Source of the DNA: Methanomicrobiales archaeon
Lineage (GTDB): Archaea > Halobacteriota > Methanomicrobia > Methanomicrobiales > Methanospirillaceae
Length of the DNA stretch: 32,240 nt
NCBI GenBank assembly: GCA_026394715.1
Contig: JAPKXR010000176.1
Coordinates: 1-32,240, forward strand
Reading direction: 5' to 3'
The notes beneath the pieces are model-generated. The model saw nothing but the letters and a program-made list of their open reading frames with translations, made no database searches and was not told where the DNA came from. Positions 5,303 through 23,865 of this stretch are shown here, piece by piece (the stretch's first letter is position 1; every line of letters starts with the position of its first letter). The position numbers and the translations under genes are program-made.

Positions 5303-5335
5303 GTAAGACTTGTCTTACATGCATTATATTTTAAG
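5303..5335. promoter_or_regulatory. Palindrome next to a TATA-like element, possible operator
   Basis: GTAAGACTTGTCTTAC at 5303-5318 has perfect seven-base arms around a TT centre. On the minus strand it lies directly downstream of an AT-rich stretch (AAAATATAAT, about 5323-5332), where an archaeal repressor would block transcription start. No credible gene follows in either direction, so the target is unknown. Confidence 0.3.
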
Positions 5336-5790
5336 GCTATTTTCGGGAACCGAACAGTAAAATACGCCTTTTTTCGGGTAAGGGTGCGAGAGTCCACCTC
5401 TTAACGGGTCGGGCCGGTATCGTTCCCCAGCTCTATCCGTAACACTCCCGGGGGGTACCGGGCTCATGCAGGACCGTATTGATCGGCTTCCCCTTCCACC
5501 GGATGTTAATACATCATCCCGGATGGCACAAATGCGGCAGGATTATCGTTATGCAATGAACTCAAAACCACGGACGAAACATTCGGGCGAATCTTGAAAG
5601 AACAGGTCAGACCACTAGCCCTATCGCGATGATGCAGCATGGATAAAACCAATGACCGCGGTACTTACGTCCCATGGATACCAGGGTGACCTTGTCGAAT
5701 AGGTAAGAAAAAATGGAATTTCCCGGTTTTTGGAATATTAGAACCTGCGGATAGGCCCGCATCTTTCCGCGAGGTTGTTTTCGGCCCGGG

Positions 5791-6153
5791 TTATCCTGGT
5801 TGACCCCGGGGTTCGTCAATGTACTCAAGGTTGAACCGGTAGAGATGGGTAAACCCGCAATTCCTGCACCGGACCGTAAAATTCCTGCAGCCGATCGTTA
5901 CATCATGGGGTCCGGTTACCTTACACCGCCTGCAAAAAACCGTGGACACCAGGTCCCAGATATCAAAACATCCTGGCCTGATATAGTCCCCGGATTTACT
6001 AATATCTTCAATAATCGGGATATATGCCCTTGTAACCCTGCAATTATCACAGACAACCTGGGCACCGTTCGGGACTGCAGTGATGACCTGGTCAACATCC
6101 TTCTGGCAGTTGAAGCAGGTGGTCTGGTGACGCATCGTGATGAAATCTTCCAT
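5791..6153 (-). CDS. Small protein with four CxxC zinc-binding knuckles
   Basis: The 120-aa product has four Cys-x2-Cys pairs at residues 13/16 (CFNC), 35/38 (CDNC), 74/77 (CRRC) and 96/99 (CRNC), plus single cysteines at 62 and 89. This is the pattern of two zinc ribbons in tandem. Such small archaeal proteins may act in RNA, transcription or redox functions; the role here is unknown. It has no membrane segment. The start is uncertain: ATG at 6153 has no clear ribosome binding site, and an internal ATG at 6135 would remove six residues. The opposite strand also carries a long open frame, but it lacks family features, and the cysteine pattern argues for the minus strand. Confidence 0.65.
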   Translation of the reverse strand: MEDFITMRHQTTCFNCQKDVDQVITAVPNGAQVVCDNCRVTRAYIPIIEDISKSGDYIRPGCFDIWDLVSTVFCRRCKVTGPHDVTIGCRNFTVRCRNCGFTHLYRFNLEYIDEPRGQPG

Positions 6154-6776: not shown

Positions 6777-8423
6777 TCATGATAGCGGGGAAAATGGGGT
6801 TTCCTTCACACCGCCTGTCCGCCACATACCTTTCGGCACCGATATCTCGAACCGTGCTCCCTTCCCCGGCTCTCCTGCCTCTCTGATGGTGATGCCGGTG
6901 ATATCGAGGATCTCACGGATAAAGAAGAGCCCCCGCACCGAAGCACGGGCACTCCCGCCGCGTAAAAAGATCAGCTCCTTCTTCTCCTGCGGGATACCAG
7001 GACCATTATCTTCGAAGACGATGACCACCCCGTCCGGGGTCGCCCGGTACGCGGCCCGGATCCGGGTGACATGGTCCCCGTGCGCGATCGAGTTCTCGAA
7101 GAGGCCCTGAAACGCCTTCTCCAGCAGGGGATCGGCAAAGATCTCAAGGGTTTCTGTTTCCAGACTGTGCTGTATTTCCCCAATGGAGATATGGGAAAGC
7201 CCGAACAACAGTACCATGTTCACGTTCTGCCATGACGGAGGTTTTGCGCCCATATCCTGGTAATCTTTGGAAATTTCAGTAATCTCGTTGATGGACCGGA
7301 CCGACTGCTCAATTTTTTGTATGCCCGCAAGAGTACTTTCCTGCCCAGCTGCTTGTTTTTTTGCCAGTTCAAGGTAACTGTTCAGGATAAATACCTGGTT
7401 GACAAGATCCCTTCGTGTCAGGTCGGAAAGGACATTGAGTTTCTGGTTGACCCGGACAAGGGTATCTTCTGCGAGTTTCCGACCGGTGATGTCGGTACAA
7501 AAACCCAGGTACCGATTATCCGGCAACTGTACGGCATTTAAGATGACCGACAATGAATCGCCATTCTTTTTTACCAGCATCGCCTCTGTAGTCAGTGATC
7601 CGGTCTCCTTCAACTTCAAAAAGCCGGCGAAACGGCCCTTCCCGGTGCCGGCAGGGACGAGGTCACGAATAGAAAGGGTGAGGATCTCCTCGCGGGAATA
7701 GCCGAACATGGAACACGCAGATGGATTTGCGTCCTGGTAGTTGCCCTCCGTATCCACAATGAAGATCGCCTCGGGAGAATTATCGATATATGTCCTGTAC
7801 TTCTCCTCGCTCCCGCGAAGCGCCGCCTCACTGTTTTTCCGGGCTTCGATTTCTTCTTTTAAGTCTTCGAGCAGGTTAATCATCGCCGTCTTATTCTTCT
7901 CCAGTACCTGGTTTGTCTCCCCCAGCTCCATCTCGGCTTTTTTGCGTTCTGTCAGTTCTTTTTCCAGCTGCGATGTGCGGTCAACGACCAGTCCGGCAAG
8001 GCGTTCTTTTTCCCGCCACTCCCGTTCGCCTGCCGCCTTGATCTTCACCATCGCCCGTATCTGGGCAGTCAGCTCTGCTTCGTCGAACGGTTTGGAGATG
8101 AACGCCTCGCCCCCTACCTCCAGTGCCCGGATGCGGCTCTTCCTGTCATCTTTTAACGCAGTGAGAAAGACCACCGGGATGTGCGAAAGGTGCGGGTCAG
8201 CCTTCAATTGCCTGCAGACCTCAAAACCGTCCATGCCAGGCATGAGAATATCCAGCAGGACCACGTCGGGGTCCTTTTCACGTGCCAGTTCGATGCCGTG
8301 TCTGCCGTCTAATGCACTAAACACGCTGACGCCGGGAAAGGCATCAACAACGAAGGCGTTCAATGCCACCAGGTTGTCTTTGTTGTCATCGATGGCGACG
8401 ATTACCGGGCCGTTATGTTTCAT
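6777..8423 (-). CDS. REC-PAS protein with a degenerate histidine-kinase module lacking the H-box histidine
   Basis: The 548-aa product has a receiver domain (about 7-125; acidic pocket DDN, phospho-acceptor Asp58 in VVLLDILMPGMDG, Lys in SKPFDE), a coiled coil (130-205), a PAS domain (about 205-320) and a kinase-like module (325-535). The module differs from working kinases. The H box reads LTRRDLVNQ where an active neighbour has ITRHDINNQ, so Arg338 replaces the phospho-accepting His. The ATP-lid box reads GGSARASVRGLFF instead of GKNTGLGLA. The G1 motif (EDNGPGIP) and the N-box-like ENS are kept. It probably receives phosphate on the REC domain but cannot autophosphorylate. The start at 8423 overlaps the hybrid kinase gene upstream by 11 bases, with GAGGT five bases before the ATG, which indicates translational coupling. 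It is the last gene of a five-gene operon. A frame extension to 8495 lies inside the upstream gene. Confidence 0.85.
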   Translation of the reverse strand: MKHNGPVIVAIDDNKDNLVALNAFVVDAFPGVSVFSALDGRHGIELAREKDPDVVLLDILMPGMDGFEVCRQLKADPHLSHIPVVFLTALKDDRKSRIRALEVGGEAFISKPFDEAELTAQIRAMVKIKAAGEREWREKERLAGLVVDRTSQLEKELTERKKAEMELGETNQVLEKNKTAMINLLEDLKEEIEARKNSEAALRGSEEKYRTYIDNSPEAIFIVDTEGNYQDANPSACSMFGYSREEILTLSIRDLVPAGTGKGRFAGFLKLKETGSLTTEAMLVKKNGDSLSVILNAVQLPDNRYLGFCTDITGRKLAEDTLVRVNQKLNVLSDLTRRDLVNQVFILNSYLELAKKQAAGQESTLAGIQKIEQSVRSINEITEISKDYQDMGAKPPSWQNVNMVLLFGLSHISIGEIQHSLETETLEIFADPLLEKAFQGLFENSIAHGDHVTRIRAAYRATPDGVVIVFEDNGPGIPQEKKELIFLRGGSARASVRGLFFIREILDITGITIREAGEPGKGARFEISVPKGMWRTGGVKETPFSPLS

Positions 8424-11400
8424 GGAGGACCTCGTGTATTGTCTGCAGAAGCAGTGCTCCGTCAACAGGCTTTGAATGGTAACCATTGAAACCATAGGAC
8501 AGGATCTCCTCGCGGTCGCCTTTCATCGCCCGGGCTGTCACGGCAATAACCGGGATATGCTTTAAATGCTCTTCTCTCCGGATTGCAGAGAGCATCGTAA
8601 TGCCGTCCATCACCGGCATTGAGAGGTCCATCAGGATGAGGTCAGGTGTCCGTGCCCGTACATGCTCAATGCCCGACCGTCCGTCCGTGGCTTCGATAAT
8701 AGTATAACGGTCCTTCAACAGCACCCGGACCGTCAGCATATCATCCGGATTGTCTTCGACAATAAGGATGGTCGGCTTCTTGGGTATATTCTTTTGACCG
8801 GTTTTTTCTGCCACCAGTCGTTCCTGACCGCGGGGCCCCGATACCATCGTCTTCACTGCCGCTAACAGCCCACTCCGGCTGATATCCCCTTTCTGGATCA
8901 GCTGGTGGATATGGTTTCCTTCCAGGAAGTTCAGTTCTTCCCGGGTGATATGCTTTGCCGTAAGGATCAGCACCGGGAGCAGGGCCGTCCTCGCATTGCT
9001 GCGGACCATTTTCAGGACTGTAAAACCGTCCACCTCCGGCATCATCAGGTCGAGGATCATCGCATCCGGGAGTTCAAGTCCAATTTGTTCAAGAGCTTCC
9101 TTGCCATTCCGGGCCACCAGCACCTTATATCCCTGCCCGGTAAGAATATCGGTTATCTGGATAACGGCAGGTTCACTGTCTTCCACTACCAGGACAGTCA
9201 GTTCTTTTTCCGGGGGTAAGGACTGCAGGTCGCCGGCCCCGGCAGGGATGGAATATTCCTTTATTTCAGCTGCCTGGTCATCAGGCAGATTCTTGGGAGT
9301 GGTGAGCGGCAGTCGCAGGGTAAACGCTGAACCCTTGCCAACGGTGCTTTCCACATCGATGCTGGCGTTGAGCAGCCGGGCATATTTTTTTGCAATGGAC
9401 AACCCGAGGCCGCTACCCCCGTAGGTCCGTGCAATGCGTTCATCTGCCTGCCGGAATTCATCGAAGATGTAGTGGACCTGGTCCTGGTCGATACCGATAC
9501 CGGTATCTGTTACGGTGATATGGATTTCATCGCCCGCCACCGCTGCCGTGATATCCACTGATCCCTCGTTTGTGAACTTCACGGCATTGGCAACGATATT
9601 CTGCAGGATATGCTGGCACTTGGAGAGATCGCTCGTGATGAGGGGGAGGGTATCACTTACCAGGTTACGCAGGGTAATTTGTTTTTCCTGTGCCTGTGGT
9701 CCGATCATTGCTACCACCATGCTGACAAGTTCATTCACCGTGAAATGGGAGAGGCTTATCTCTTCTCGTCCTGCTTCGATCCGCGAGATGTCCAGGATAT
9801 CGTTGATCAGTCCGAGCAGGTGCCGGCCATTTCGTTCGATCACGTCAAGATAACTGTATTCTTCTTCCGGGATCTTACCGGCCAGCCGGCGGTTCAGGAC
9901 ACCGGACAAGGCAATGACCGAGTTGAGTGGTGTCCTGAGCTCGTGGCTCATATTGGAGAGGAAGACGCTTTTCAACCGGTTGGCATCATCCAGTTGTTTT
10001 TTCTGGACTTCCAGCTCGGTGTTCTGCTCCCGCATTACCTCTGCCTGGACGGTCATCTCAGTATTCTGCTCCCGCATTAGATTCGCCTGAACGGTCATCT
10101 CGGCATTCTGTTCCCGCATTACTTCTGCCTGTTGAGCCAGTTCCCGGGACTTCTCCGTCAGTTCTCGGTTCTGTTCTTCGAGTAGTTCGGAAAATTCCGT
10201 CATCTTCCTGAATGCCAGCACCCCGTTGAAGCGGGCAGTCAGGATAAGCCAGCAGTCGTTGACCAGCCGGATTGCCGGCAACGAGTAGGCATGGATGGAT
10301 GCAAGCGAGATCATAGCAACTGTTTCATGCCCTGAAATGACCGGGATAGTGAAGATCTCCTGTGGCCTCATATCGCCGACGACGGCGGAGAAAACAAACG
10401 GTGTGTCCCCCGGTATCTCCGTGATATGCTGGATCCGTCTCGTTGCGAGCGCTGCACCGAACTCACCTTCCTGTTCCACCGCAGAGAATGATGCCCTGCC
10501 TGCGTGGGAGAGGCCGATGGATTCGAAGAGGACAAATTCGGATTTTTTTGGGTTCAGAAGATACACGGCCCCCACCTGAGATCTGGTAAACCGTGCAAGC
10601 GTTACCAGCAATTCCCGGCAGAACGACGACAATTCTTCTTCCCTGAGCATGACTTCTGAGATCCGGGCTGCCTCCTCTTTGCCCTGTAGTTCGGCCTGGA
10701 CGGTATCGGCAAGCCCGTTGAACGAAGCGGCGAGCACGCCTATCTCATCGGTGGATACATACCGGCTGCGGGCGTCCTTCCTGCCACCCCGGTATTCTTC
10801 CGTTACCGCTGCCAGTTCCCTGAGCGGGTCCCGGATACGTTTTAGCAGGAAAAAAAAGACCCCCAGTGAGATCAGGAGAATAGCGCCCAGAAGGACGACG
10901 AGCTGCACCATTAAGTCTTCCTGGTGCTTCTTGGCATCAAGATAAAACTGGTCGCCCCGCGCTTTGGAGAAATCGCTCATCTTCCCGATATCGGCCATCA
11001 CCTTTTCAACGTGGAGGCCACCGGCACCGGTGGATTTGACACGTTTTTTTGCCCCTGCAACATCACCTTCACGCAGCAGCCGGATGGACTCGTCACGAAT
11101 GGATTTCCACTGGATGAAGTCATTGTAAGAATTGTCAATATCGGAACGGGGTCCCAGGTACAGGTTGTAGAGAGTATCGAACTGCCTGTAAGCATCAGCT
11201 TCCCTGGTATCGATCAGCTGGATGATCTCTGCTCTCTCTGTATCGTTATCAGCCAGGACAAGGGTATTCATTCCACGGTGCATGACCAGGAGGTCCGCAT
11301 CGAGATCCCCGATAGCCCGCCGCACCTGGAGCGGATGCTCGTAGAGCCCGGCTGTTTCCTGCCAGAGGCTCGCTTCCTGGATAACCGCAACGGTACCCAT

Positions 11401-11475
11401 AAGGATGACAAGGACAAGGATGATGCCAAGGCCGATCCCGAGCTGCTTGCCGATATTCAGGTCTTTAATTTTCAT
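8413..11475 (-). CDS. Membrane hybrid histidine kinase: 4-helix-bundle sensor, HAMP, GAF, HisKA, HATPase and two receivers
   Basis: The 1020-aa product is predicted to sense a ligand outside the cell through a four-helix-bundle domain (about 34-188) between two membrane helices (11-33, 189-211). HAMP (about 212-265), GAF (about 275-420) and a coiled coil (425-500) with three 14-residue repeats follow. The kinase is canonical: H box SNMSHELRTPLN with His511, N box NIVANAVKFT, G1 DTGIGI and G2 GGSGLGLSI. Two receivers end the protein, with phospho-acceptors Asp809 (LDLMMPEVDG) and Asp950 (LMDLSMPVMDG). ATG at 11475 overlaps the stop of the CheR gene by four bases (ATGA), with GGTGAT just before it; the five-codon longer start is less likely. 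It is the only operon member with intact phosphotransfer motifs, so it probably supplies phosphate to its own receivers and perhaps to the REC domain of the next gene product. Confidence 0.93.
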   Translation of the reverse strand: MKIKDLNIGKQLGIGLGIILVLVILMGTVAVIQEASLWQETAGLYEHPLQVRRAIGDLDADLLVMHRGMNTLVLADNDTERAEIIQLIDTREADAYRQFDTLYNLYLGPRSDIDNSYNDFIQWKSIRDESIRLLREGDVAGAKKRVKSTGAGGLHVEKVMADIGKMSDFSKARGDQFYLDAKKHQEDLMVQLVVLLGAILLISLGVFFFLLKRIRDPLRELAAVTEEYRGGRKDARSRYVSTDEIGVLAASFNGLADTVQAELQGKEEAARISEVMLREEELSSFCRELLVTLARFTRSQVGAVYLLNPKKSEFVLFESIGLSHAGRASFSAVEQEGEFGAALATRRIQHITEIPGDTPFVFSAVVGDMRPQEIFTIPVISGHETVAMISLASIHAYSLPAIRLVNDCWLILTARFNGVLAFRKMTEFSELLEEQNRELTEKSRELAQQAEVMREQNAEMTVQANLMREQNTEMTVQAEVMREQNTELEVQKKQLDDANRLKSVFLSNMSHELRTPLNSVIALSGVLNRRLAGKIPEEEYSYLDVIERNGRHLLGLINDILDISRIEAGREEISLSHFTVNELVSMVVAMIGPQAQEKQITLRNLVSDTLPLITSDLSKCQHILQNIVANAVKFTNEGSVDITAAVAGDEIHITVTDTGIGIDQDQVHYIFDEFRQADERIARTYGGSGLGLSIAKKYARLLNASIDVESTVGKGSAFTLRLPLTTPKNLPDDQAAEIKEYSIPAGAGDLQSLPPEKELTVLVVEDSEPAVIQITDILTGQGYKVLVARNGKEALEQIGLELPDAMILDLMMPEVDGFTVLKMVRSNARTALLPVLILTAKHITREELNFLEGNHIHQLIQKGDISRSGLLAAVKTMVSGPRGQERLVAEKTGQKNIPKKPTILIVEDNPDDMLTVRVLLKDRYTIIEATDGRSGIEHVRARTPDLILMDLSMPVMDGITMLSAIRREEHLKHIPVIAVTARAMKGDREEILSYGFNGYHSKPVDGALLLQTIHEVLHET
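10003..10128 (-). repeat. Three tandem 42-bp repeats encoding 14-residue coiled-coil units
   Basis: Within the hybrid kinase, AEVMREQNAEMTVQ, ANLMREQNTEMTVQ and AEVMREQNTELEVQ follow each other without gaps. Fourteen residues equal two heptads, so the units lengthen a coiled coil between GAF and HisKA without changing its register. Each unit carries Glu-Gln pairs. Confidence 0.9.
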
Positions 11476-12317
11476 ACCATCACCTGACATTCTTTTATTT
11501 TCCGGTACACGGCACTCATGGGGAAAATTTCTTCAAGGTTTATCGTATCAACAATCCCCCGTTCTGCCTCGCCGGTCACCATGTACCCACCATACGACAA
11601 GGAGTGGCAGACTTTGTTGATGATAAACTGCCGGACCTCCGGCTTGTAATAGAAGAGCAGGTTGCTGCAGAAGACGAGGTCGAAATCCCCGTAAATGCTT
11701 CCCGGGGGACTGGTGGAGCGCTCATCCAGGAGGTCATAGGACGAGAACTCGATCCGGTCTATAAGTCGACGGGAAACCGTATAGCTCCCGTGTCCCGTTT
11801 CAAAGCAGGACTGGAGATGCTTCAGCCTCACGTTCTGCACCGCGACCGTATCGTACACGCCGCGTCCTGCAGTTACCAGGGAATCCCCTGATATATCGGT
11901 GGCAAATATGCGGAACGAGAGGGAAGATTTTCGTGCGACGAGGAGTTCATCGAGCAGGATGGCAACAGAGTAAGACTCCTGCCCGGCGGCACACCCTGCC
12001 GACCAGACACGTAGTTCCGCAGTACAGGAATCCTGTTTTTCCTCGATGAGCCGTGGTAAGACCTGCTGCTCCAGCACGGCAAAGGTAAGCGGGTTCCTGA
12101 AGAATTCACTGTAAGTGATGTTGAGCGACCGAAAGAACTGTTCAGCCTCATCGGCATTCCCCGAAAGGTAATCGCAATAGTCTGTAACCGTCGCAAGGGA
12201 GGTCGCCGCCATTCGTTTTTCTAAGGAGGCGGACAGAAAGGGTTCATCATAGCATGAGATATCGCACCCCTGCAATACCCGCATAGTCTTTACAATCCGG
12301 TGCAGCTCACGGTTCAT
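11472..12317 (-). CDS. CheR-type SAM-dependent protein-glutamate methyltransferase
   Basis: CheR proteins methylate glutamates on the signalling helices of chemoreceptors. The 281-aa product has the CheR helical N-terminus (with the SEFFRNP motif near 84-90), the SAM-binding motif VWSAGCAAGQESYSVAI (about 103-120), an acidic ribose-binding segment (FATDIS) and the LVFCSNLLFYY segment corresponding to FCRNVLIYF of classical CheR. Arg to Ser in FCSN is a deviation. No CheB, CheA, CheW or receptor gene is nearby; instead the gene is coupled by an ATGA overlap to the hybrid kinase. The frame is open to a TTG at 12362, but GGTGAT three bases before ATG 12317 marks the start. The methylated partner is unknown; the downstream MCP-like kinase is the obvious candidate. 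Confidence 0.88.
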   Translation of the reverse strand: MNRELHRIVKTMRVLQGCDISCYDEPFLSASLEKRMAATSLATVTDYCDYLSGNADEAEQFFRSLNITYSEFFRNPLTFAVLEQQVLPRLIEEKQDSCTAELRVWSAGCAAGQESYSVAILLDELLVARKSSLSFRIFATDISGDSLVTAGRGVYDTVAVQNVRLKHLQSCFETGHGSYTVSRRLIDRIEFSSYDLLDERSTSPPGSIYGDFDLVFCSNLLFYYKPEVRQFIINKVCHSLSYGGYMVTGEAERGIVDTINLEEIFPMSAVYRKIKECQVMV

Positions 12318-12355
12318 AGAATCACCAATTGTATTTTCCCCCTCACCCGGTTTCT

Positions 12356-12544
12356 TTAACAAGCATTAATCTCCTGTTTCAACGCGATCATGCGCAGTTC
12401 CCGGTCCAGTGTCAGGTTGTTGAACCGCCTGATTTCATCTACGGTCTTGTTCAGCTGCTCTTCTGCATCATCCCGGACCGAACGTCCGGAGCGGCTGGTA
12501 CCCGCGTCCTTATCTTCCCTGCCCGTCTTCTTTTTTGTAACCAT
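12356..12544 (-). CDS. 62-aa charged helical protein coupled to the kinase-like gene upstream
   Basis: The product has a basic, low-complexity N-terminal half (VTKKKTGREDKDAG) and a helical C-terminal half reading NLTLDRELRMIALKQEIN. That half resembles the signalling-helix linkers found before PAS or kinase domains in larger sensors. Here it stands alone. ATG at 12544 shares one base with the stop of the preceding gene (TGATG), and GGTGAT lies five bases before it. A GTG three bases upstream is less likely. The CheR gene starts 38 bases after its stop. It may act as an adaptor or coiled-coil partner within the operon; that role is inferred only from position and composition. Confidence 0.65.
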   Translation of the reverse strand: MVTKKKTGREDKDAGTSRSGRSVRDDAEEQLNKTVDEIRRFNNLTLDRELRMIALKQEINAC

Positions 12545-15500
12545 CACGCATCACCCCTGCCTGCTGTACGCCACACACCCTTCGGCACCACCATCTCAAA
12601 CCGTACCCCCTGCCCGGGCTCGCCCGTTTCGTTAATCGTAATGCCAGTGATATCAAGGATCTCCCGGACAAAGATCAGGCTTCGCGTCGTCGCACGGGTA
12701 CCGTCGCCACGTAAAAAGATCTGCTCCTTCTTCTCCTGCGGAATGCCAATACCGTCATCTTCAAAGAATATGGTGGCCCGGTCAGGAGTAACCGTGTACC
12801 AGATCCGGATCCGGGTGACATGCCCCCCGTGTTTCACCGAGTTCTCGAAGAGGCGCTGGCATACCTTTTCCAGCAGGGGATCGGCAAAGATCTCGAGGTC
12901 TTCTGTTTCAAGACTGTGCCGGATATTCCCGATGGATATGTGAGAAAGCCCGAACAGCATTTCCATTTTCACGTTCTGCCATTTTGGGGGTTTTGCACCC
13001 ATGTCCTGGTAATCCTTCGAGTATTCAATGGTCGCGTGGATTAACTGGACCGCCTGCACACCTTTTTGCAATGTTGCAATAACCTGGTCCTGCCCGTCTA
13101 ACTGATCTTTTGCCAGCTCGAGGTAACTGCTCAGAACAAAGGTCTGGTTGGTTAAGTCTTTTCGTGTCAGCTGGGAGATTACGTTGAGCTTCTGGTTCAC
13201 CCGCAGGAGAGCGTTTTCCGCCACTTTGCGCTCGGTGACGTCCCTGCTCACACCAATGAGCACCTCGTTGCCGTTCCACCACCCACGGGTAACCTTTGTC
13301 TCGACCTCGATACGCATACCATCCTTTGTAAGAACGGGTACAGAACAGGAATCGGTTGTTTCGGCAGTTATTCCCACTATAATTTTTAGTGCTTCATCCC
13401 GACGCTCGGGTACATGCAATAGAAGGACATTCGTACCGGTAAGTTCCCGTTGGGTATACGAAAGACGTTTCTGAACCGTATCATTTACCGCAAGGATGCA
13501 TCCTTTCATATCCAGCACGAATACCATATCATCGATCGAGTTGAACAGGGTCTTAAAATTTTTTGCGGCGTTCTTAACTTCCCTTTCGGCCGCCATCCTC
13601 TCTATGGTACTGCCAAGTTCGCGGCTGATTGAGATGAGCGTCTGTTTTTCCTCTTCAGAAATTACCTGCCGCCTCTTGCTGGCGAGATTCAACGCCCCGA
13701 TTGCCACACCTTTTGAGAGTAAAGGGATACTTGCCATCGATAAAAATCCATACTTCTCTGATCGGCCTGGAGCGATCTGTGCATAATTCTCAGTGATAAT
13801 CGGTTCGTTTTTTATAAACAACGTATCATAGGGTTTCGTATCAATAGCTAACGGCTGAATTTCAGCAAGGAATTCTTCGGGAAGATTTTTGGAGTGGACG
13901 ACATGTGCAGTTCGTGTGGAACGGTCCACCAGGTAGATCCCTCCGACATCGAAGTCGAGCAGGTGAAGAGATTCTTCAAGGATACTGGTGAGGAGCTCAG
14001 GCAGGTCATCTGCCTTGTTTGCCGTAGAGATAATCGCATTGAGGATGGAAAGTGTTGCAGACTGATGTTGCAGCGCCACTTCCGCCACTTTGCGCTCGGT
14101 AATATCACGTCCGACACTCAAACATACCTGCACCCCTTCATACTCAATGATCCGTACATTGATCTCTGTGGGTATGCAGGTCCCGTCCTTCCGCACATTA
14201 CAGGTCTCGAAGATCTGATGTTTCGAATTCATCAGCTGGCGCAGCCGTTCTGGCACCAGCCCGGCATACTCGGGACTGTCGAAATCCATGGGGGTCATCT
14301 GCAACAGTTCTTCCCTGCTGTACCCCAACCGGTCACAAAGGACCTGGTTTACGTCCAGTATTCTTCCGGTCATATCGTGAATGAGAATTGCATCACTTGA
14401 ATTATCAAAAAGGGCTCGGTATTTTATTTCGCTCCTTTTGAGTGCCTCTTCCACCCGTTTACGCTCGGTAATGTCCCGGGCTGCCGCAAAGACACCACTG
14501 ACATTACCCGCCTCGTCGCGGTACACCGTAGCATTATACAACACGGGAGTGATATGGCCATCGCGGTTTCGGATGCTCAGGGGGTAATCGCGGACAATTC
14601 CGTCAGTGAATACCCGTTGATATCCCTCCTTTGCCTGCTCAGGCTCGGTGAAATTGTCTGAGAAATCGGAACCGATCAGTTCTTCTCTTGAGTACCCGGT
14701 TGCCAGTTCAGTAGAGATATTTACATCAGCGATCTTGCCATCAGAATTTATTGTGACCAGTGGGTCCAGGCTTGCTTCGAGCAGGCTTCGGTTATAAATA
14801 TTGAGAGTCCGCAGTGCCATTTCCTGCCGGGTCAGTTCAAATAAATTAGCCCGGAGCTCTTGTTGTGAAGCGGTCAGTTCCTCATAGGCAGCATGAAGTT
14901 CTTCAGCATTCTTGCGCAGCGCATCTTCCGCCCGTTTGCGCCCGGTGATATCAATCCCGATTGCAATAGAGCGGGCATCCTGCCCGGATGTTACCGGGAA
15001 ATTCCGGGTATTCCACGAGATAACCTTCTCTTCCCCACTCCGGGTCCGGATTTTTGTCTCAAGATTTTCAAAGAAACTGTCCTCTGCAATAATTTTTCCG
15101 ATCTTTTTTGTTATTCCGGCGCGGTACTCCTTGTCCGGGTAGAGGAGTTTCCAGATATCATTGGAACCTGTCACCTCCACCGCGGCATACCCGCTGATCC
15201 GCTCCGCTGCGTTATTCCAGAGAAGGACACGGCCCCTGGTATCCAGCAGCATCAGCCAGACATTGGCGTTCATTAAGGAACTTTCCTGGATATCCACTAC
15301 TTTTTTTAAGGATTTCTCGCTTTGAATAAACTGTTCAGAAAGATATGCCACAACTGCCGCAATCCCGATAAAGACCACGAACCGGATCAGTGCCCCGATA
15401 ATGACCTCATCCTGGCCAGGGGAATATAAAAGGACAAGGCCGATGTAGATAAGGCTGATGATGCCCGATAGCACGAACCCCTTGTACCGGTACCGGTACG

Positions 15501-15720
15501 CAAGAAGCACAATCGGCAGGTAGTAGAGGTGCATGAAGATAATGGTAATACCGTGGGAAAGGCAGTAGACCGAGAAAAGAATGACTACCACAGATATCGT
15601 AAGAATGATTACCTGATACGATCTTTCTGAAATGCCGGCAGCATGATGTAACAACCCATCCTCCCGTGTCCAGTCACCGGTTCCTGGCTTTTGCAGTTCG
15701 GGTTCGTGCATTGCAGTCAT
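12544..15720 (-). CDS. Membrane PAS/GAF sensor with a degenerate histidine-kinase module lacking the H-box histidine
   Basis: The 1058-aa product has four N-terminal membrane helices (about 34-55, 57-75, 81-99, 108-127). These are followed by PAS (148-262), PAS (312-425), PAS (436-550), GAF (560-715), PAS (722-836) and a kinase-like module (838-1055). The H box reads LTRKDLTNQ, so Lys854 replaces the phospho-accepting histidine. The G1 motif EDDGIGIP is intact, but the ATP lid reads GDGTRATTRSLIFVRE with no GLGL glycines. The module shares SKDYQDMGAKPP-x-WQNV and LFGLSHISIG with the REC-PAS pseudokinase at the operon end. AGGA five bases before ATG 15720 supports the start. It is the first gene of the operon and overlaps the 62-aa gene by one base. 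It probably signals by conformational coupling or by pairing with another kinase rather than by autophosphorylation. Confidence 0.88.
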   Translation of the reverse strand: MTAMHEPELQKPGTGDWTREDGLLHHAAGISERSYQVIILTISVVVILFSVYCLSHGITIIFMHLYYLPIVLLAYRYRYKGFVLSGIISLIYIGLVLLYSPGQDEVIIGALIRFVVFIGIAAVVAYLSEQFIQSEKSLKKVVDIQESSLMNANVWLMLLDTRGRVLLWNNAAERISGYAAVEVTGSNDIWKLLYPDKEYRAGITKKIGKIIAEDSFFENLETKIRTRSGEEKVISWNTRNFPVTSGQDARSIAIGIDITGRKRAEDALRKNAEELHAAYEELTASQQELRANLFELTRQEMALRTLNIYNRSLLEASLDPLVTINSDGKIADVNISTELATGYSREELIGSDFSDNFTEPEQAKEGYQRVFTDGIVRDYPLSIRNRDGHITPVLYNATVYRDEAGNVSGVFAAARDITERKRVEEALKRSEIKYRALFDNSSDAILIHDMTGRILDVNQVLCDRLGYSREELLQMTPMDFDSPEYAGLVPERLRQLMNSKHQIFETCNVRKDGTCIPTEINVRIIEYEGVQVCLSVGRDITERKVAEVALQHQSATLSILNAIISTANKADDLPELLTSILEESLHLLDFDVGGIYLVDRSTRTAHVVHSKNLPEEFLAEIQPLAIDTKPYDTLFIKNEPIITENYAQIAPGRSEKYGFLSMASIPLLSKGVAIGALNLASKRRQVISEEEKQTLISISRELGSTIERMAAEREVKNAAKNFKTLFNSIDDMVFVLDMKGCILAVNDTVQKRLSYTQRELTGTNVLLLHVPERRDEALKIIVGITAETTDSCSVPVLTKDGMRIEVETKVTRGWWNGNEVLIGVSRDVTERKVAENALLRVNQKLNVISQLTRKDLTNQTFVLSSYLELAKDQLDGQDQVIATLQKGVQAVQLIHATIEYSKDYQDMGAKPPKWQNVKMEMLFGLSHISIGNIRHSLETEDLEIFADPLLEKVCQRLFENSVKHGGHVTRIRIWYTVTPDRATIFFEDDGIGIPQEKKEQIFLRGDGTRATTRSLIFVREILDITGITINETGEPGQGVRFEMVVPKGVWRTAGRGDA

Positions 15721-15879
15721 AGGGGTCCTGGAATGTGTTGATTTTTTGGGATGTTTCGCATGGTTTTTAATTCAGTCAATTGCCGTCCGGGGTATTTCTG
15801 ATGAGCATGAAGATAAAGGACGCCTGGGAAATAATAGTTTTTCCGCATATTCCATATTGGGCCTTTTCATTCCGGGTCC

Positions 15880-16920
15880 TCATCTGACCTCATGGAGCCG
15901 CCACACCCCCTTCGGTACCGTAATCTCGAACCGTGCTCCATTCCCGGGCCCGCCGGTTTCTGAGATCGTGATGCCGGTGATGGAAAGGATCTCCCGGGCA
16001 AGTGCTAAACCAAGCCCGGTGTTCTTCCCAAAGCCGCGCTCGAAGATCTTCTCCTTCTCTTCGGCGGGTACACCCTCACCATCGTCTTCACAGACGAGTA
16101 CCTCGTCCCCGTCGCGTTCCAGGGCAGAGAACCGGATGGCCGTAATCTTCCCGCCGTACCGGGCAGCGTTGTCCATCAGGTTGTAAAAGACCCTGGTGAT
16201 GAGCTGGTCAGCGAACACCTCCGTTCCGGCAGGGAGGTCATTGTTCACCATGACCTTTCCGAGCGGGGCTTCCTTTGCTACAGCGTCTACGAGTGTGCGG
16301 GTATCCTGCCAGACTGGGGCATTGACACCAATCTCCTCGTATTCCCTGGTGAATCGGACCATGGCGGAGATCCGCTTTGCCGCGGTAGAAACCTTCCCGA
16401 AATACTCATTCTGTGAGGGATCGAGTGGTGTATCTCCGAGTATTTCGAGGTAGCCCATCTGCACCGTGAGCTGGTTGTTAATGTCGTGCCGGGTGATGGA
16501 CGAGAGAAGGGTGAGCTTCTTGTTTGCCTCCCGGAGAGATTCGTCCGCCCGCTTCTTGTTCAGGGCCACCAGAATCGTGGCGGACAGGGTATTCTGGTTG
16601 AACGGCTTGATAATATAACCGTAGGGTGCGGTGACAAGGGACCGGTCAAACGTATACCGGTCAGAAAGCGCCGTGAGAAATATTACGGGGATGTTGAATG
16701 CAGTATGGATCTTTTCAGACGCGGCAATGCCATCCATGTCCCCCAGCAGCTGGATATCCATCAGCACAAGGTCCGGTCTCTCACTCCCCGCCTTCACTAT
16801 GGCCTCCTCACCCGTTGCCACCAGTCCTGCAACGACATAGCCAAGTTCGACCAGGTTTTTCTCAATGACTTTTGCAACGATAAAGTCATCCTCGACAATC
16901 AGTACCGATTCCAATTTCAC
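15880..16920 (-). CDS. REC-histidine kinase with canonical catalytic motifs
   Basis: The 346-aa soluble product has a receiver domain (1-125; DD at 11-12, phospho-acceptor Asp55 in LVLMDIQLLG, Lys105 in IIKPFN) fused to a short kinase. The H box SSITRHDINNQL carries His145. The N box reads LMDNAARYGG, G1 CEDDGEGVP, and the lid FGKNTGLGLALAREIL. It ends with the tail shared across the island. It therefore gives the intact reference for the histidine-less relatives nearby. The start is GTG at 16920, preceded by a weak GGAT; no ATG is available near the beginning of the receiver domain. A TATA-like TTTATCAAT lies about 40 bases upstream on the minus strand. It is separated by 159 bases from the downstream operon and could be co-transcribed or separate. 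Confidence 0.9.
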   Translation of the reverse strand: MKLESVLIVEDDFIVAKVIEKNLVELGYVVAGLVATGEEAIVKAGSERPDLVLMDIQLLGDMDGIAASEKIHTAFNIPVIFLTALSDRYTFDRSLVTAPYGYIIKPFNQNTLSATILVALNKKRADESLREANKKLTLLSSITRHDINNQLTVQMGYLEILGDTPLDPSQNEYFGKVSTAAKRISAMVRFTREYEEIGVNAPVWQDTRTLVDAVAKEAPLGKVMVNNDLPAGTEVFADQLITRVFYNLMDNAARYGGKITAIRFSALERDGDEVLVCEDDGEGVPAEEKEKIFERGFGKNTGLGLALAREILSITGITISETGGPGNGARFEITVPKGVWRLHEVR

Positions 16921-17449
16921 AGTCTATCCGTTTATGGCAATGCTATTGCTTCATAATTGATAAAGTACTTGTTCCCGGAGTGGCTTTGGTGTATACCATT
17001 TAATCGTCCCTGGCCTTCTCACCCGGGTAATCAAAATAGTAAACAGCCCGATTGATCTGGTCCAGGTAACCGGGCATTACGGACAATGCTCGCCAAAAAC
17101 CGCTGGCTGCCTCGTGCAGAGTCTGAACAACGGCATATAAAATGTGAAATAAATCCCCCTTAACTCTGAAGAAACATAACGTTTCATCGGCCATGTTTTT
17201 TTACATAGGGTATATCATCATCGCCCTCGCACCAGATATTTTTTAAATTCTTTTTATTCTCCCGTCTCCCTTTGGTAGGACGTAAGTCCCAACTCCTGGA
17301 GAGTACTATTCAATACCAATTGAGGGTTTCCGAGAGAAAGTGGCAGATTTAGTAGAGAACAATGTAACCAATGTAACCAGGAGTACGATTCGCGAACTCG
17401 CGAGATCAGACTGCAAACGTAGCGGCTTTCTTTTTGATCGTCCAGGCCG
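16921..17449. other. Intergenic region between the broken kinase and the REC-histidine kinase
   Basis: Apart from the doubtful 64-codon frame at 17000-17194, nothing coding is seen. AT-rich stretches occur at about 16955-16965 (TTTATCAAT on the minus strand, possible promoter of the REC-kinase gene) and 17205-17255. Confidence 0.4.
17000..17194 (-). CDS. Possible 64-aa protein of unknown function
   Basis: Starts MADETLCFFRVKGDLFHILY and has a helical, moderately hydrophobic composition without a clear membrane segment. No ribosome binding site precedes ATG 17194, but a TATA-like ATATA lies about 25 bases upstream, which would fit a leaderless transcript. No family is recognised. It lies in the gap between a decayed kinase gene and the REC-kinase gene. 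Confidence 0.25.
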   Translation of the reverse strand: MADETLCFFRVKGDLFHILYAVVQTLHEAASGFWRALSVMPGYLDQINRAVYYFDYPGEKARDD

Positions 17450-18870
17450 TCATCTCCACGCCCCCTTCGGCACCCCCATCTCTAACCGTGCACCCTTCCC
17501 CGGCTCCCCTGTCTCTTTGATCGTAATCCCGGTACTATCGAGAATTTTGCGTACAAAAATGAGACTGCTCATCGAAGCCCGGGTCCCGTCACCACGTAAA
17601 AATATACGTTCCTTCTTCTCCTGCGGAATGCCAATACCATCATCTTCAAAGAATATAGTGGCCCGGTCAGAAGTAACCGTGTACCATATCCGAATCCGGG
17701 TGACATGGCCCCCGTGTTGCCCCGGGTTCTCGAAAAGGCGCTGGCATACCTTTTCCAGCAGGGGATCAGCAAAGATCTCAAGGTTTTCGGTTTCGATTCT
17801 GGGCCGGATATTCCCAATAGATATATGGGAGAGTCCGAACAACATTGTCATCTTCACATTCTGCCAGGCAGGGGATTGTACACCCGGTTCCTGGTAATAT
17901 TTCGAATATTCAATGGTAGCCTGGATTGACTGGATCTCCCGGACACCTTTTTGTACAGTCTCGATGATACAGTCCTGCCAGGCTAATTGAATTTTTGCCA
18001 GCTCAAGACAGTTGCTCAGGGCAAAGATATGGTTGGATAAGTCCTGTCGTGTCAGTTGGGAGAGGACATTGAGCTTCTGGTTCGCCCGACGGAGTGTTTC
18101 TTGTGCGATTTTTGCGTCCGTTGATATCTTCTACCGTCGAGAGAATGTAAGGCCTGCATCCGATCACAATAACGCTGGAGGAAAACTGGCTGGTACGGAT
18201 CTCTCCGGATTTTGTCCGGGTATGTAATTCCATCCCACCTACGAAATGCCTTTCCTGAAGCGCGGAGGCCAGCTGTTCCTGTTCATCGTTATCCGCGAAA
18301 ATCCCCAGTTCCCCGGAAGTTTTGCCAACTACCTCTTCCCGGCAATATCCGGTATTCCGCGTAAATGCATCGTTGACATCTACAAAAACACCATCGGTCG
18401 CCGAAACAAGCGTCATTGAAATCGGGTTACTCTTAAAAATCGTTGCAAACGTGTTCTCAGATTCACGTAATGCTTCTTCCGCCCGATTTCCTTCCACTGC
18501 TTTTTTGATCTGGTGTGAGAGTTCGGCAAACTGTGCGCCCGGTTCACCGCCTTTCTGGAGATAGAAGTCTGCACCGCTGTTGATCGCCTGGATGACCACT
18601 TCTTCCCTGCCTTTGCCAGTGAACAGAATGAACGGGACCGACCCAAATTTATTCCGGACCTCGACGAGGAACTGGATGCCGTTCATGCCAGGCATCTGGT
18701 AATCGGAGATGATGGTATCGAATTTCTCCTTTTTAAGGAGTGTTAAGGCAGCAGGCGCCGAATCAATGGTTGTTACAGAAAACACACCAACCTGCTCAAA
18801 GGAAGATCCTGCCAATATCAAGAAGGTCTGGTTCGTCATCGACATAGAGTACCCGGAGGGGACCATCCAT
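17450..18870 (-). pseudogene. Broken REC-PAS kinase-like gene with two single-base frameshifts; H-box His replaced by Gln
   Basis: Joining three frames gives one protein. Part one starts MDGPLRVLYVDDEPDLLD and runs to FL at about 18801. Part two is the rest of the receiver (ISDYQMPGMNG, then FTGKGREE) and a PAS domain. Part three is a kinase-like module to the stop at 17450. The first shift is one extra T in a T-run (18798-18800 on the plus strand). The second is one extra A at 18121-18122, just after STVEDI. The H box would read LTRQDLSNH, with Gln in place of His, and the lid GDGTRASMSSLIFVRK lacks GLGL. It thus belongs to the histidine-less group and is very close to the module of the 12544-15720 gene. 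Its ATG shares one base with the stop of the gene upstream (TAATG). Both shifts are length changes in short base runs, so sequencing error remains possible. Confidence 0.8.
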
Positions 18871-20309
18871 TATGCACCATACCCCACCGTACGCAATATA
18901 CCTTCCGGCACCATCATCTCGAACCGTGCCCCTTTTGCCCGGGATCACCCGTCTCTTTGATGGTAATGCCGGTGATATCGAGGATCTCCCGGGATATGGC
19001 CAGGCCAAGCCCGGTATTCTCCCCAAAACCCCGGTCGAAGATTATTTTCTTCCCGAAAACCGGGATCCCTACACCGTCGTCCTCGCAGACGATGGTCCGA
19101 TCATCTCCGGATCCCTGGGAACGAAAAACGGATGGTCGTGATCTTCCCGCCGTACCGCACCGCGTTGTCAACCAGGTTGAAAAAGACGCTGGCGGTCAAC
19201 GGGTCGGCGAACACTTCTATACCTGCAGCCAGATCGTTTTTCACCAGGATCTTTCCGAGTGGGGCTTCATTAGCCGCATTTTCGACGAGGTTGCGGCAGT
19301 CCAACCATGTGGGAGACTAAACACCAATCTGTTCGTACTCTTTGGTGAAACGGATCGTAGCAGCGATCCCGGAACTCATCTTTGTGATCTGGTTGAAATA
19401 ATCCTTAAGCGTTGGGTCCGGGGCTTTTGCATGTAATATCTCAATAAACCCATCCAATGCCAGGAGCTGATTGTAGATCTCGTGGCGGGTAATACGGGAG
19501 AGTTGAGTGAGTTTGCTATTGGACGAAAACAGCTCCTCTTCCACCTGCTTTCGTGAAGTCTCATCACGGTAGCGTGCAACAATCTCACCTGAGGGCAGTT
19601 TGAAGATAAAATTATCGCGCCACCCTGATATCCTGTTATCCTTGTAGAAAGAAACGGGTAATGATTCGGGTACACCCGTATGCCAGACACGCCGGAGAAT
19701 GTTGAGGAACCCAAATTCCTGCACCCCGGGGAATACCTCCGTCAGACGGTGCCCGATAACCTCTTCCCGTGTTATCTTCTCTTTTTTCTCTGCAGCATGG
19801 TTAAATTCAAGGATTTCAAAGTCTTCACCATCCATTAAGGCCGAGTAAACTGCAATGCAATCAGGCATGTTTTCAACAAGGGAACGATAGCGGTTCTCGC
19901 TAACTTTTAACGCTTTTTCAGCGATTCTCTGCGCTACTATCATCAGGATATGATGTGAAAGCCCAGGCAAACTGCGCATCAGGGTTACCCCCTTTCTGGA
20001 GGTAAAAGTCTGCCCCGTTGTTGATTGCCAGGGTGACCACCTCTTCCCTCCCCCTGCCGGTAAACAGGATGAAGGGGACTTTCCATACCTGTGCCCGCAC
20101 CTCAATAAGGAACTGGATGCCATCCATGTCGGGCATCTGGTAATCAGAAATGATGGCAGCGGATTGTTCTCTGACGAGGAGTTCTAAGGCAGCATTCGCT
20201 GATTCGAGGGTTAATATGAAATATCACCAGATTTCTCAAGAAACCGTTTGCCGATGTCCAGGAGAAATGGTTCATCATCAACGTAGAGTACCCGGAGTGG
20301 AATAGTTAT
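18870..20309 (-). pseudogene. Decayed REC-PAS-histidine kinase gene with several frameshifts, a nonsense codon and a lost start
   Basis: Joining frames reconstructs a receiver (IPLRVLYVDDEPFLLDIG, then ISDYQMPDMDG and FTGRGREE), a PAS domain (ENRYRSLVENMPDCIAVY) and a kinase. The kinase once had normal motifs: H box LSRITRHEIYNQ, N box LVDNAVRYGG, G1 CEDDGVGIP and lid GENTGLGLAISRE. Lesions seen: the aligned start codon is ATA (20307-20309), with frameshifts near 20216-20226, 19958-19968, 19108-19120 and 18930-18942. An in-frame TAG also lies at 19317-19319, between QIGV and SPTWLD. The downstream frame ends in TAA overlapping the ATG of the next broken gene. It is a tandem paralogue of that gene. 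Six lesions make true decay more likely than sequencing error. Confidence 0.8.
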
Positions 20310-20340: not shown

Positions 20341-20380
20341 TTTCGGCATTATCATCCAGAACCGTGCTCCTTTGCCCGGC
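20341..20380 (-). pseudogene. Remnant of a histidine-kinase C-terminal tail
   Basis: In a frame different from the PAS protein, the minus strand encodes PGKGARFWMIMPK. This corresponds to the conserved end of the island's kinases (GARFE-x3-PKG). The bulk of the kinase module is missing, so this is what remains after a deletion or recombination. Confidence 0.6.
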
Positions 20381-23300
20381 TACCCGCAGCACCGTTCCAA
20401 CCGGCTTCCGTTTCAGTGATATCATGGATGATGGAAAAGAGGAGCGTCTTTCCGCCAATGGCTACGGGAGAGGAGTGCACCTCAACAGTCCTTGCCTCTC
20501 CGCTCGAATGCCGGTGTTGTGAAGTGAACGTGGTGATCTGCCCCCGTGCTACCTTTGCCCGCAACGCCTTCACCTCTTTTGGAGGCAGGGTGTTAATCTC
20601 ATCAATGGATAACGTACAGATAGTTTCCCTTGACCTGCCGTAGAACCGTTCAGCAGCCAGGTTTGCATCCATGATCATACCGGACCCGGGATCGATCAGG
20701 AGCATAACGGAATCATGGCACTCGAACATCACGCCGAAGATCTTCTCCCTCTTCTGCTGCGCCTCAGCAATTGGTTTACGCCCGGTGATATCGATCAGCA
20801 TCAGGCTGAGGGCTGCTTCAGCTCCTTCACTTGCCGGGGCCGGCCCCGCAATTACCTGTACCCGGAATGGTGGCCCATGCGGATATATCAGGTACATCTC
20901 GCAGGATTGCCGATTCCCCGTCTTGATAAGCTCATTCCGGCAGCCATAGAAGACAGCCTGATGATCCGGTACGATAAACCTGGAAAACGACGTGTTGACC
21001 AGGTTTTTCCGGTCCACACCAAGCAGGGTTGCGGTGGTAAAATTGGCATTGGTGATCAGCCCCTGTTTATTGAGGGTCAGATATCCTGCAGGCGCCAGGT
21101 CATACAGTTCAAAATACCGTTCACGGTACTGGTCGAGATGGGCTTGCACCTTTCGTAGCTCCTCGTTCTGCATCTCCAGTTCAGTCTGGTGAAGATGGAG
21201 TTCTGCTTCCGTCTTCTGCAGACAGTCAGACGTTGTCTTCAGGACATAGCTGGATTTTTCCCGGAGGTCTTCCTCCTTCCGTTTACGACTGGTGATATCG
21301 TGAAAGATCCCAAGCATACCAGAAACATTTCCGGCCTCATCCAGAATAGGAGTTTTTAATGTGGAGACCCAGGATTCCTTACCATTTACGATATACCGCT
21401 CTTCAATCGTGTGGGTGGCACCGGACGCCATGACTTCCCGGTCATACGCCCGGTACTTATCAGCCAGATCACGGGGATAGAAGTCATAATCGGTCTTTCC
21501 CACAATTGCTTCAACGGCAATCCCAAGGTCACGGGCATAGTGTTCATTGCACGAGACATAGGCATCGTTCGTATCCTTGGTAAAGATCTTCTCAGGGATA
21601 TTCTCAACAAGCGTCCGGTACTTATGTTCACTCGCTTCCAGTGCGGCCTCCGCCATTTTGCGCTTGTTAATATCCAGGTGCACTGAAACCCATACCAGTC
21701 CATACTCAGGATGATTAAACGTTGTAGTAGTGGCATTGCACCAGAACATTGTCCCATCCTTTCGGATATTTTGGATCTCTCCATTCCATTCGCCAGTCTG
21801 CAGAAGACTCGTGATAATTTCGTCGGCGACGACCTGGGGATCCTTCTCACCCGGTGCATTGATGATACGTATGTGTCTTTTTGTAAGTTCGCCGGCACCA
21901 TATCCAAACATGCATTCGAAGCGGGGATTTGCATAGACAATAACGCCGTCACGGGCCTGGATCATCACCACACCTTCAGCCATGTTCTGAACAATCCTGC
22001 TCTGAAGGTCCAGCGACTCTTCCGCCCGCCTGCGTTCGGTAATATCAATGTTTGATCCTTCATAAAAAAGCACGGTACCTTCCGTATCCCGGATGGTCCG
22101 CGCAGTGATTGAGACCCAGAAACGGGTACCATCCCGTTTTTTGTGCAGGGTTTCATAATTCTCAATCCTATCTTGCTCCGCAAGAATCCGGACCACTTCG
22201 TTCCGGTCTTCCGGATTGGCATAGAGGTGCTGGTTGACATCTATACGGGTATGTAACATCCCGGCAGCTTCGGTATACCCGTACATGTGGGCAAATGCAT
22301 CATTTACATCGATCAGCAAGCCGCCAGGTGTAGTTTTGAATAACCCTGATACAGATTTTTCAAAAATATCCCGGTATTTTTGCTCGCTTTCCCGCAGTGC
22401 CTCTTCCGCCCGCTTGCGTTCGGTGATGTCTTTTGCAAAACAGCAACAGTACTGTTTGTCCTTGAACTCGAGATAATTGAGGACCATTTCAACAGGGACC
22501 ACGCGGCCGTCATGACCGATGATGGCAGTTTCAAACATGTAATACCGGTCCCGCAGGATTACTTCCCAGGTCTCATCCCACGAAAACGGGAAAACCCCGT
22601 CAATGATATCCTGAAATTTTTCCGTACCCAAATCGCGGTGCTGGTAACCCAGCACCTTCCGGGCTTCCCGGTTCATGTACACGAACCGGCCCCCACGACT
22701 GGCCCACATGATCAGGTACGATGCGTTATCCACAGCAAACTGGGTGAACTGGAGCTTGAGATATGTCCTCTCGTGGCTGGCAATCTCATGATAGATCTGC
22801 CGGTTCAGGTCCTGGACCTCAGCCAGGCGTTCCTGTGCCATGGATTCTCTCTCTTCCACACCTTTCTGTACCGTCTCTTTAAGATTTTTCATATCGGTAA
22901 TGTCACTACCGGTACCCATGTACCCAATCGATTTTCCAGCCTGGTCAAACAAAATCCGGAATATCCACCGCTGCAACCGGGAGTCCCCCCGGGGAGTAAT
23001 GGCCCTGAAATCCAGTGATGACACCGGGTGAGCAGAGTCCAGCGAGAGGAGGCATTGTTTAATCCTGGTATAATCGCTTTTTGGTACCGTTGGTCGCCAC
23101 CGGTGACCGGTAAGTTCGGTTTTTCCTTTCTGCAGAAGGTCACTATATGCCCGGTTCACGTAGGTGAGCGTGCCATCCGGTGTAAACCGGCAGATATATT
23201 CTGTCATGTCCAGTTCGGCAAGCGAATCATCTGCGCCATACTCGTTCCGGTGGGGATAACTGGCAACTGCCGGTATATCGGCAATAAGGGCAACTCCCGG

Positions 23301-23807: not shown

Positions 23808-23865
23808 CGTTACTTCATCATAGCTCAACGGATCTTATCTAGCTTCCGTTCGTGCCAGAGATTAA

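Follow-up and report, generated by a model that had tools for sequence, protein, structure and literature searches.

Histidine kinase-like modules without the acceptor histidine

The window, i.e. the whole stretch of 32,240 nucleotides analyzed here, belongs to a 3.25-Mb metagenome-assembled genome (MAG) in 402 contigs; its named near relatives are MAGs labelled Methanoregula or "uncultured Methanomicrobiales", several of which are lake-derived judging by the isolate name. Three genes on the minus strand of the window encode DHp-CA modules in which the phospho-accepting His of the H-box is replaced by Arg, Lys or Gln, as an earlier note on this DNA had claimed and direct reading confirms. The first gene (6777..8423) encodes, according to domain search, a REC-PAS-[His-less DHp-CA] protein of 548 aa starting from the ATG at 8423, and its module (6819..7454) reads LTRRDLVNQ, with the Arg acceptor codon at 7410-7412 and a Ser-His dyad at 7191-7196. 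The second gene (12544..15720) encodes a membrane/PAS/GAF sensor protein of 1058 aa with the His-less module at the C-terminal end (12568..13203; LTRKDLTNQ; Lys acceptor codon 13159-13161; Ser-His dyad 12940-12945). In the third gene, a frameshift separates the REC-PAS part (18003..18866) from the module (17453..18088; LTRQDLSNH; Gln acceptor codon 18044-18046), which is a decaying copy. In all three modules, the glycines of the ATP lid are gone as well, again as the earlier note had it, the respective segments reading GGSARASVRGLFF, GDGTRATTRSLIF and GDGTRASMSSLIF, without GxGL.

The same strand carries two His-bearing relatives with the H-boxes given in the earlier note, namely an intact REC-DHp-CA protein (15880..16920; ITRHDINNQ in the module at 15898-16527; GLGL lid), which is encoded directly upstream of 12544-15720, and a broken gene (about 18914..20300; ITRHEIYNQ around 19520) with an internal TAG and a frameshift. 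The Pfam HisKA model matches the active kinase at 15880-16920 and none of the His-less modules, which score above the cut-off for HATPase_c. The first His-less gene is the last member of an operon-like run (12362-6777, minus strand) that starts with a CheR-type methyltransferase (11472..12362) and continues with a hybrid histidine kinase containing two RECs (8413..11490; 4HB_MCP-HAMP-GAF-HisKA-HATPase-REC-REC by domain search), the end of which (8413) is overlapped by the start of the His-less gene. The same trio, in the same order and with Arg at the acceptor position, is present in another genus (L194:1534-7191), where the architecture of 6777..8423 recurs at L194:5464-7191; the hybrid kinase is the likely phosphodonor partner of the His-less protein. 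The methyltransferase thus adjoins a 4HB_MCP-HAMP hybrid kinase in two genera (window 8413-12362 and L194:1534-5510). Elsewhere in the window, 20352-23828 encodes a 1158-aa protein that has a helix-turn-helix-like N-terminus and several consecutive PAS domains and in which Pfam finds no kinase domain.

Two His-less groups and their distribution

The modules of the window belong to a His-less clade with the H-box LTR[KQRE]DL, hereinafter R-type. A second His-less group, hereinafter F-type, has [TIV]F[QNTSDE]DIQ where its relatives have TRHDI. Both were enumerated by a genome census that combined profile searches with fetched stretches. A search with the 212-residue module yields 10 R-type matches in the window genome (nine full and one fragment) with 69-100% identity, and the next full-length matches in this genome show 36-44% identity, so that the window samples a sharply separate group of paralogs, which accounts for approximately one quarter of the related kinase modules of the genome. 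R-type modules are present in 12 of the 108 genomes and 5 of the 17 genera of the host's family (Methanoregulaceae as analyzed), including the single-contig genome G006 (2,922,917 bases), in which a single R-type gene was identified. The F-type, first met among relatives at 40-50% identity, is more widespread, its members having been verified in no fewer than four of the order's families. Two genomes, G007 and G026, each hold several His-less modules, and every dyad-bearing module read in them lacks the His, with the exception of a TSHDI module of G007. In the 394 genomes of the phylum that were sampled, the profiles match less well outside the order, and the modules read there carry TRHD. We found no earlier description of this His-less clade in the open-access papers searched, which cover the literature in part.

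Conserved and lost residues and the predicted fold

The acceptor position is occupied mostly by Lys in R-type modules (K 59, Q 22, R 10, T 5 and E 2%) and by Gln in F-type modules (Q 46, T 15, N 13, S 10, D 7 and E 4%), and by Tyr in neither; the phospho-accepting His itself is found in 1 of the 41 R-type modules (a chimera) and 2 of the 68 F-type modules. The GxGL lid is present in 96 of 99 His-bearing modules, 52 of 68 F-type modules and none of the 41 R-type modules. The joint loss of the His and the lid that the earlier note had proposed therefore does not hold in general: as the F-type demonstrates, the loss of the His can stand alone. Most of the remaining signature residues are retained. 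An acidic residue (D/E) follows the acceptor position (H+1) in 98-100% of the His-less modules, and H+4, the phosphatase position of HisKA kinases, is N, T or S in 97-100% (N/T in 75% of R-type and 84% of F-type modules, the remainder being mostly Ser, 16-22%). The N-box Asn is kept in 88% (R-type) and 97% (F-type), and the G1 box (DxGxG), Lys159 and Phe163 are kept as well.

Seven residues are common to the F-type and R-type and rare elsewhere, foremost among them the Ser87-His88 dyad (module numbering), found in 108 of the 109 R-type and F-type modules vs 1 of 99 His-bearing modules, and Phe at H+7 (94-95% of the His-less modules), a position that corresponds to T250 of EnvZ, a known partner-specificity residue (PMC2991266). 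Of the two shared motifs singled out in the earlier note, LFGLSHISIG contains this dyad and with it a genuine clade marker. The other, DYQDMGAKPP-x-WQNV, is the R-type version of a segment found in active kinases too, there as EYEEIGVxAPxWQD; in an active kinase encoded by the window genome it reads EFQDMGAKPPVWQS, so that the KPP motif is not private to the R-type. Outside the clade, a single His-bearing module, L123 on C29 of the window genome (TRHDIRNQ, AISHLD), has the complete dyad; it may represent a step before the loss of the His or a case of convergence.

The AlphaFold model of the R-type module at 12568..13203 (pLDDT 84.6, falling under 50 in the lid, residues 167-173) consists of a DHp hairpin and a CA fold. 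A Foldseek comparison of this model with solved structures gives E = 1e-11 to HK853 and query TM-scores of 0.5-0.74 in the top 50; the best matches are HK853-RR468 complexes, EnvZ chimeras and DivL (4q20), and those closest by TM-score include KdpD and ZraS. In the model, His88 is located where the first CA helix ends, off the DHp hairpin. The conservation of the fold assumed in the earlier note rests on structure prediction together with sequence.

Phylogeny and the loss of the histidine

Trees were built without the acceptor column and the lid. In the tree of 213 modules, SH-aLRT support is 99 for the R-type clade and 96 for the union of the F-type and R-type; the F-type receives 97 without its most basal row and 80 including that row. 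The corresponding bootstrap/SH-aLRT values in a tree of 70 modules are 100/98 for the R-type, 99/85 for the F-type and 98/92 for the union. When outgroups that do not belong to the order (Methanosarcinales and others) are added, the union is supported at 97/89; here, a His-bearing outgroup row on a long branch and a further row with the His weakly join the R-type (96/51 and 84/50), so that one or two losses of the His are both possible. The trees support an R-type clade and a His-less union distinct from active TRHD kinases, as the earlier note had expected, and reject, as the main pattern, homologs scattered among active kinases; isolated losses of the His do exist outside the clade. One such independent loss is the pair AYQDIQNK/SYQDIQNK (L110 of the window genome, C58:4920-5546, and L151:9547-10173). 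Other single modules without the acceptor His are L152 (TRRDILNQ), L160 (AKNDIMDR) and L302 (LTRTTMNNQ), the first two with a lid that otherwise looks active.

Three His-bearing modules fall inside the union in the 213-module tree: L133, L236 (TFHDI) and L252 (TSHDI). In L133 (L133:4224-5984, JANYBK010000065.1; module 5334-5969), a membrane sensor, an active-type H-box (SSITRHDINNQ) is immediately followed by R-type sequence, the CA having no lid, which looks like an apparent recombination that returned the His to a pseudokinase background.

Selection

For pairs with dS under 1, the median dN/dS is 0.227 in the R-type, 0.231 in the F-type and 0.224 in active kinases, medians that are descriptive because the pairs are non-independent. 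By segment, the R-type and active kinases are close in the CA (0.19 vs 0.21) and DHp (0.32 vs 0.30) and differ in the lid (0.29 vs 0.11) and the H-box (0.19 vs 0.05), so that relaxation is confined to the acceptor/H-box and the lid. Orthologs of His-less modules from separate species show values of 0.09-0.12. The purifying selection predicted for the lineage in the earlier note is accordingly found at the level of active kinases, with only the acceptor and the lid relaxed. Together with the supported clade, this favors the view that the lineage is selected for a role that is non-catalytic in the classical sense, although not in the copy at 17450-18870: measured against common relatives, the dN of its module (17453-18088) exceeds that of the sister by a factor of 1.4-1.8 at similar dS, and this faster evolution and the frameshift mark it as decaying.

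Proposed function and alternatives

The computed clades, conservation, selection, retained residues and predicted fold form a pattern that fits a receiver-directed phosphatase or reading module better than decay. Judging by their sequences, the R-type and F-type very probably represent a maintained, many-membered family of pseudo-histidine-kinases of Methanomicrobiales without classical autokinase activity. Given that the acceptor His is lost and nearly everything else is kept, these proteins probably read or erase phosphate signals of other kinases; in our estimate, there is an even chance that they are transmitters which, gated by the sensor part, read the phosphate of response regulators or take it off. 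Within the maintained family, a receiver phosphatase comes close to such a chance, a reader of phosphorylated receivers or heterodimer partner is a serious if weaker candidate, and a kinase of other substrates is improbable.

The steps we infer are loss of autokinase activity, docking of REC proteins and phosphatase action. The His-less modules would descend from His-bearing kinases and would not be autophosphorylated at the usual place. Their sensor part (PAS/GAF/REC) would still set the shape of the DHp hairpin, which would dock REC proteins phosphorylated by other kinases, and the phosphate of the docked receiver would be chiefly removed via the retained H+4 Asn/Thr, or simply read. The sensor parts are ordinary (PAS, GAF, PocR, solute-binding and REC), and a REC at the N-terminus is less frequent among the His-less proteins (7/35 and 13/55) than among the active kinases (37/78), so that a built-in substrate is not the rule.

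A receiver-directed module is suggested by the conserved operon, the fold similar to histidine kinase-receiver complexes and DivL, the correspondence of H+7 to EnvZ T250, and the behavior of the CrdS mutant H371A, which keeps most of the phosphatase activity (the half-life of CrdA~P is 2.6 min vs 53.5 min without CrdS), the H+4 residue N375 being required for the phosphatase only (PMC3510030). Several observations speak against the phosphatase reading. The PleC mutant H610A loses the phosphatase, the His being needed for both activities (PMC3510030), and DivL, with Tyr in place of the His, is neither a kinase nor a phosphatase, senses DivK~P and regulates CckA (PMC4211667). Replacement of the CrdS H+4 residue by Ala, Gln or Asp abolishes the phosphatase, and the Ser found at H+4 in 16-22% of the His-less modules, a substitution absent from these data, may likewise count against it (PMC3510030). 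Furthermore, the H+1 acid of CrdS is needed for the kinase only (PMC3510030), so that its retention is not explained by a phosphatase role.

The principal alternative, which we consider possible without favoring it, is a reader or heterodimer partner that, like DivL, has no catalytic activity; it would attach to a phosphorylated receiver or form a pair with an active paralog, whose activity it would alter. In addition to the precedent of DivL, the pseudokinase variant of ChrS acts with its paralog HrrS, and heterodimers have been seen (PMC9491836). The complete loss of the R-type lid is compatible with this reading, as is the gene context: 12 of 25 R-type genes lie next to a gene for an active kinase vs 10 of 54 His kinase genes (p = 0.014), and in three genomes an R-type gene is followed, 0-4 bases on, by a REC-PAS-kinase gene. 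Against it, adjacency within the window genome is no higher than for active kinases (4/9 vs 5/14, p = 1) and no F-type gene of 38 adjoins one, and pure reading alone leaves the retention of H+4 and of the F-type lid unexplained. On the same counts, we do not rely on proximity to active kinases as a hallmark of the family, and the suggestion of the earlier note that these proteins are allosteric partners or dominant regulators of active kinases stands as one possibility.

It is improbable that the modules, above all the F-type, bind and hydrolyze ATP and phosphorylate another protein or residue. In the F-type, the N-box Asn and the G1 box are indeed retained, in most cases together with the lid, the clade has acquired a near-invariant His (Ser87-His88), and RdmS binds and hydrolyzes ATP without autokinase activity, for which its authors propose an unknown substrate (PMC11784639). 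Nevertheless, the R-type lacks the lid glycines, the position of His88 in the model is away from the DHp hairpin, and ATP binding could serve as a conformational cofactor only. Still more doubtful is a functional replacement of the H-box His by the Ser87-His88 dyad, which would then either carry the phosphate itself or form a new contact that makes the module a kinase or switch for other proteins.

Simple decay, in which duplicated kinases turn into pseudogenes, is very unlikely: kinase islands are rich in paralogs, and the copy at 17453-18088, with its raised dN, and its active neighbor are both broken, but the family evolves under the constraint seen in active kinases, with even lower dN/dS between orthologs of separate species, the frames are open in the other R-type places listed, and the shared residues are conserved clade-wide. 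Decay is thus largely refuted for the family and stands for the one broken copy. An assembly or annotation artefact can practically be dismissed: the window genome is fragmented and its two broken genes could include sequencing errors, but His-less modules are present in many independent assemblies, including the single-contig genomes G006, G007 and G026, which refutes it for the family as a whole.

Significance and comparison with known systems

To our knowledge, most of what is known of pseudo-histidine-kinases comes from the individual cases of DivL and RdmS. Here, a whole clade has multiplied, with relatives across a methanogen order; the earlier note was right on the lineage and on selection, and the order-wide spread and the Ser-His marker are added by the present analysis. 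Because the acceptor and the lid are changed and the rest is under normal constraint, the family amounts to a natural mutagenesis set, which allows one to ask what transmitters do without autophosphorylation and bears on the control of phosphate flow in archaea rich in REC-only regulators. It also carries a warning: many methanogen proteins that probably bear the annotation of sensor histidine kinase are unlikely to act as such on themselves, i.e. as autokinases.

Like the R-type and F-type, DivL of Caulobacter and its relatives combines a conserved DHp-CA with PAS sensors and has the His replaced (PMC4211667). DivL is a single-function ortholog group of alphaproteobacteria with Tyr at the acceptor position, whereas the R-type and F-type are many-copy methanogen paralogs with Lys, Gln, Arg, Glu, Thr and others at this position and the Ser-His dyad, the R-type also being lidless. 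They are thus pseudo-histidine-kinases in the sense that the His is replaced in a conserved, selected clade, without the Tyr that characterizes DivL orthologs. The MA_type 2 kinases RdmS and MsmS of Methanosarcina acetivorans are likewise methanogen sensors without the H-box His, and RdmS has no autokinase activity (PMC11784639, PMC6944256); it hydrolyzes ATP without self-phosphorylation, an earlier tyrosine signal having been revised as unspecific (PMC11784639). The MA_type 2 kinases are described as lacking the whole H-box, in contrast to the R-type and F-type, in which the H-box helix is intact save for the His, and in the 5.8-Mb Methanosarcina-type genome G536 the F-type profile has a single match at E <= 1e-15, which reads TRHDI. 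Identity with MA_type 2, with RdmS compared by its description, is therefore unsupported. The archaeal "nonenzymatic HK-like proteins" resemble the R-type and F-type in having sensor domains and an incomplete transmitter, but keep the His and lack the HATPase, which is the reverse of the present case (Galperin et al. 2018, PMC5847659). Finally, the bifunctional HisKA kinases EnvZ, HK853 and CrdS share with the R-type and F-type the module anatomy and the H+1 and H+4 residues and are among the top structural matches (PMC3510030, PMC5727384); of the canonical HisKA features, the His-less modules have the DHp and the Bergerat-fold CA, and differ from these kinases in lacking the phospho-accepting His; of the N, G1 and G2 boxes of the CA, they keep the first two, whereas G2, the lid, is lost in all R-type modules and kept in most F-type modules.
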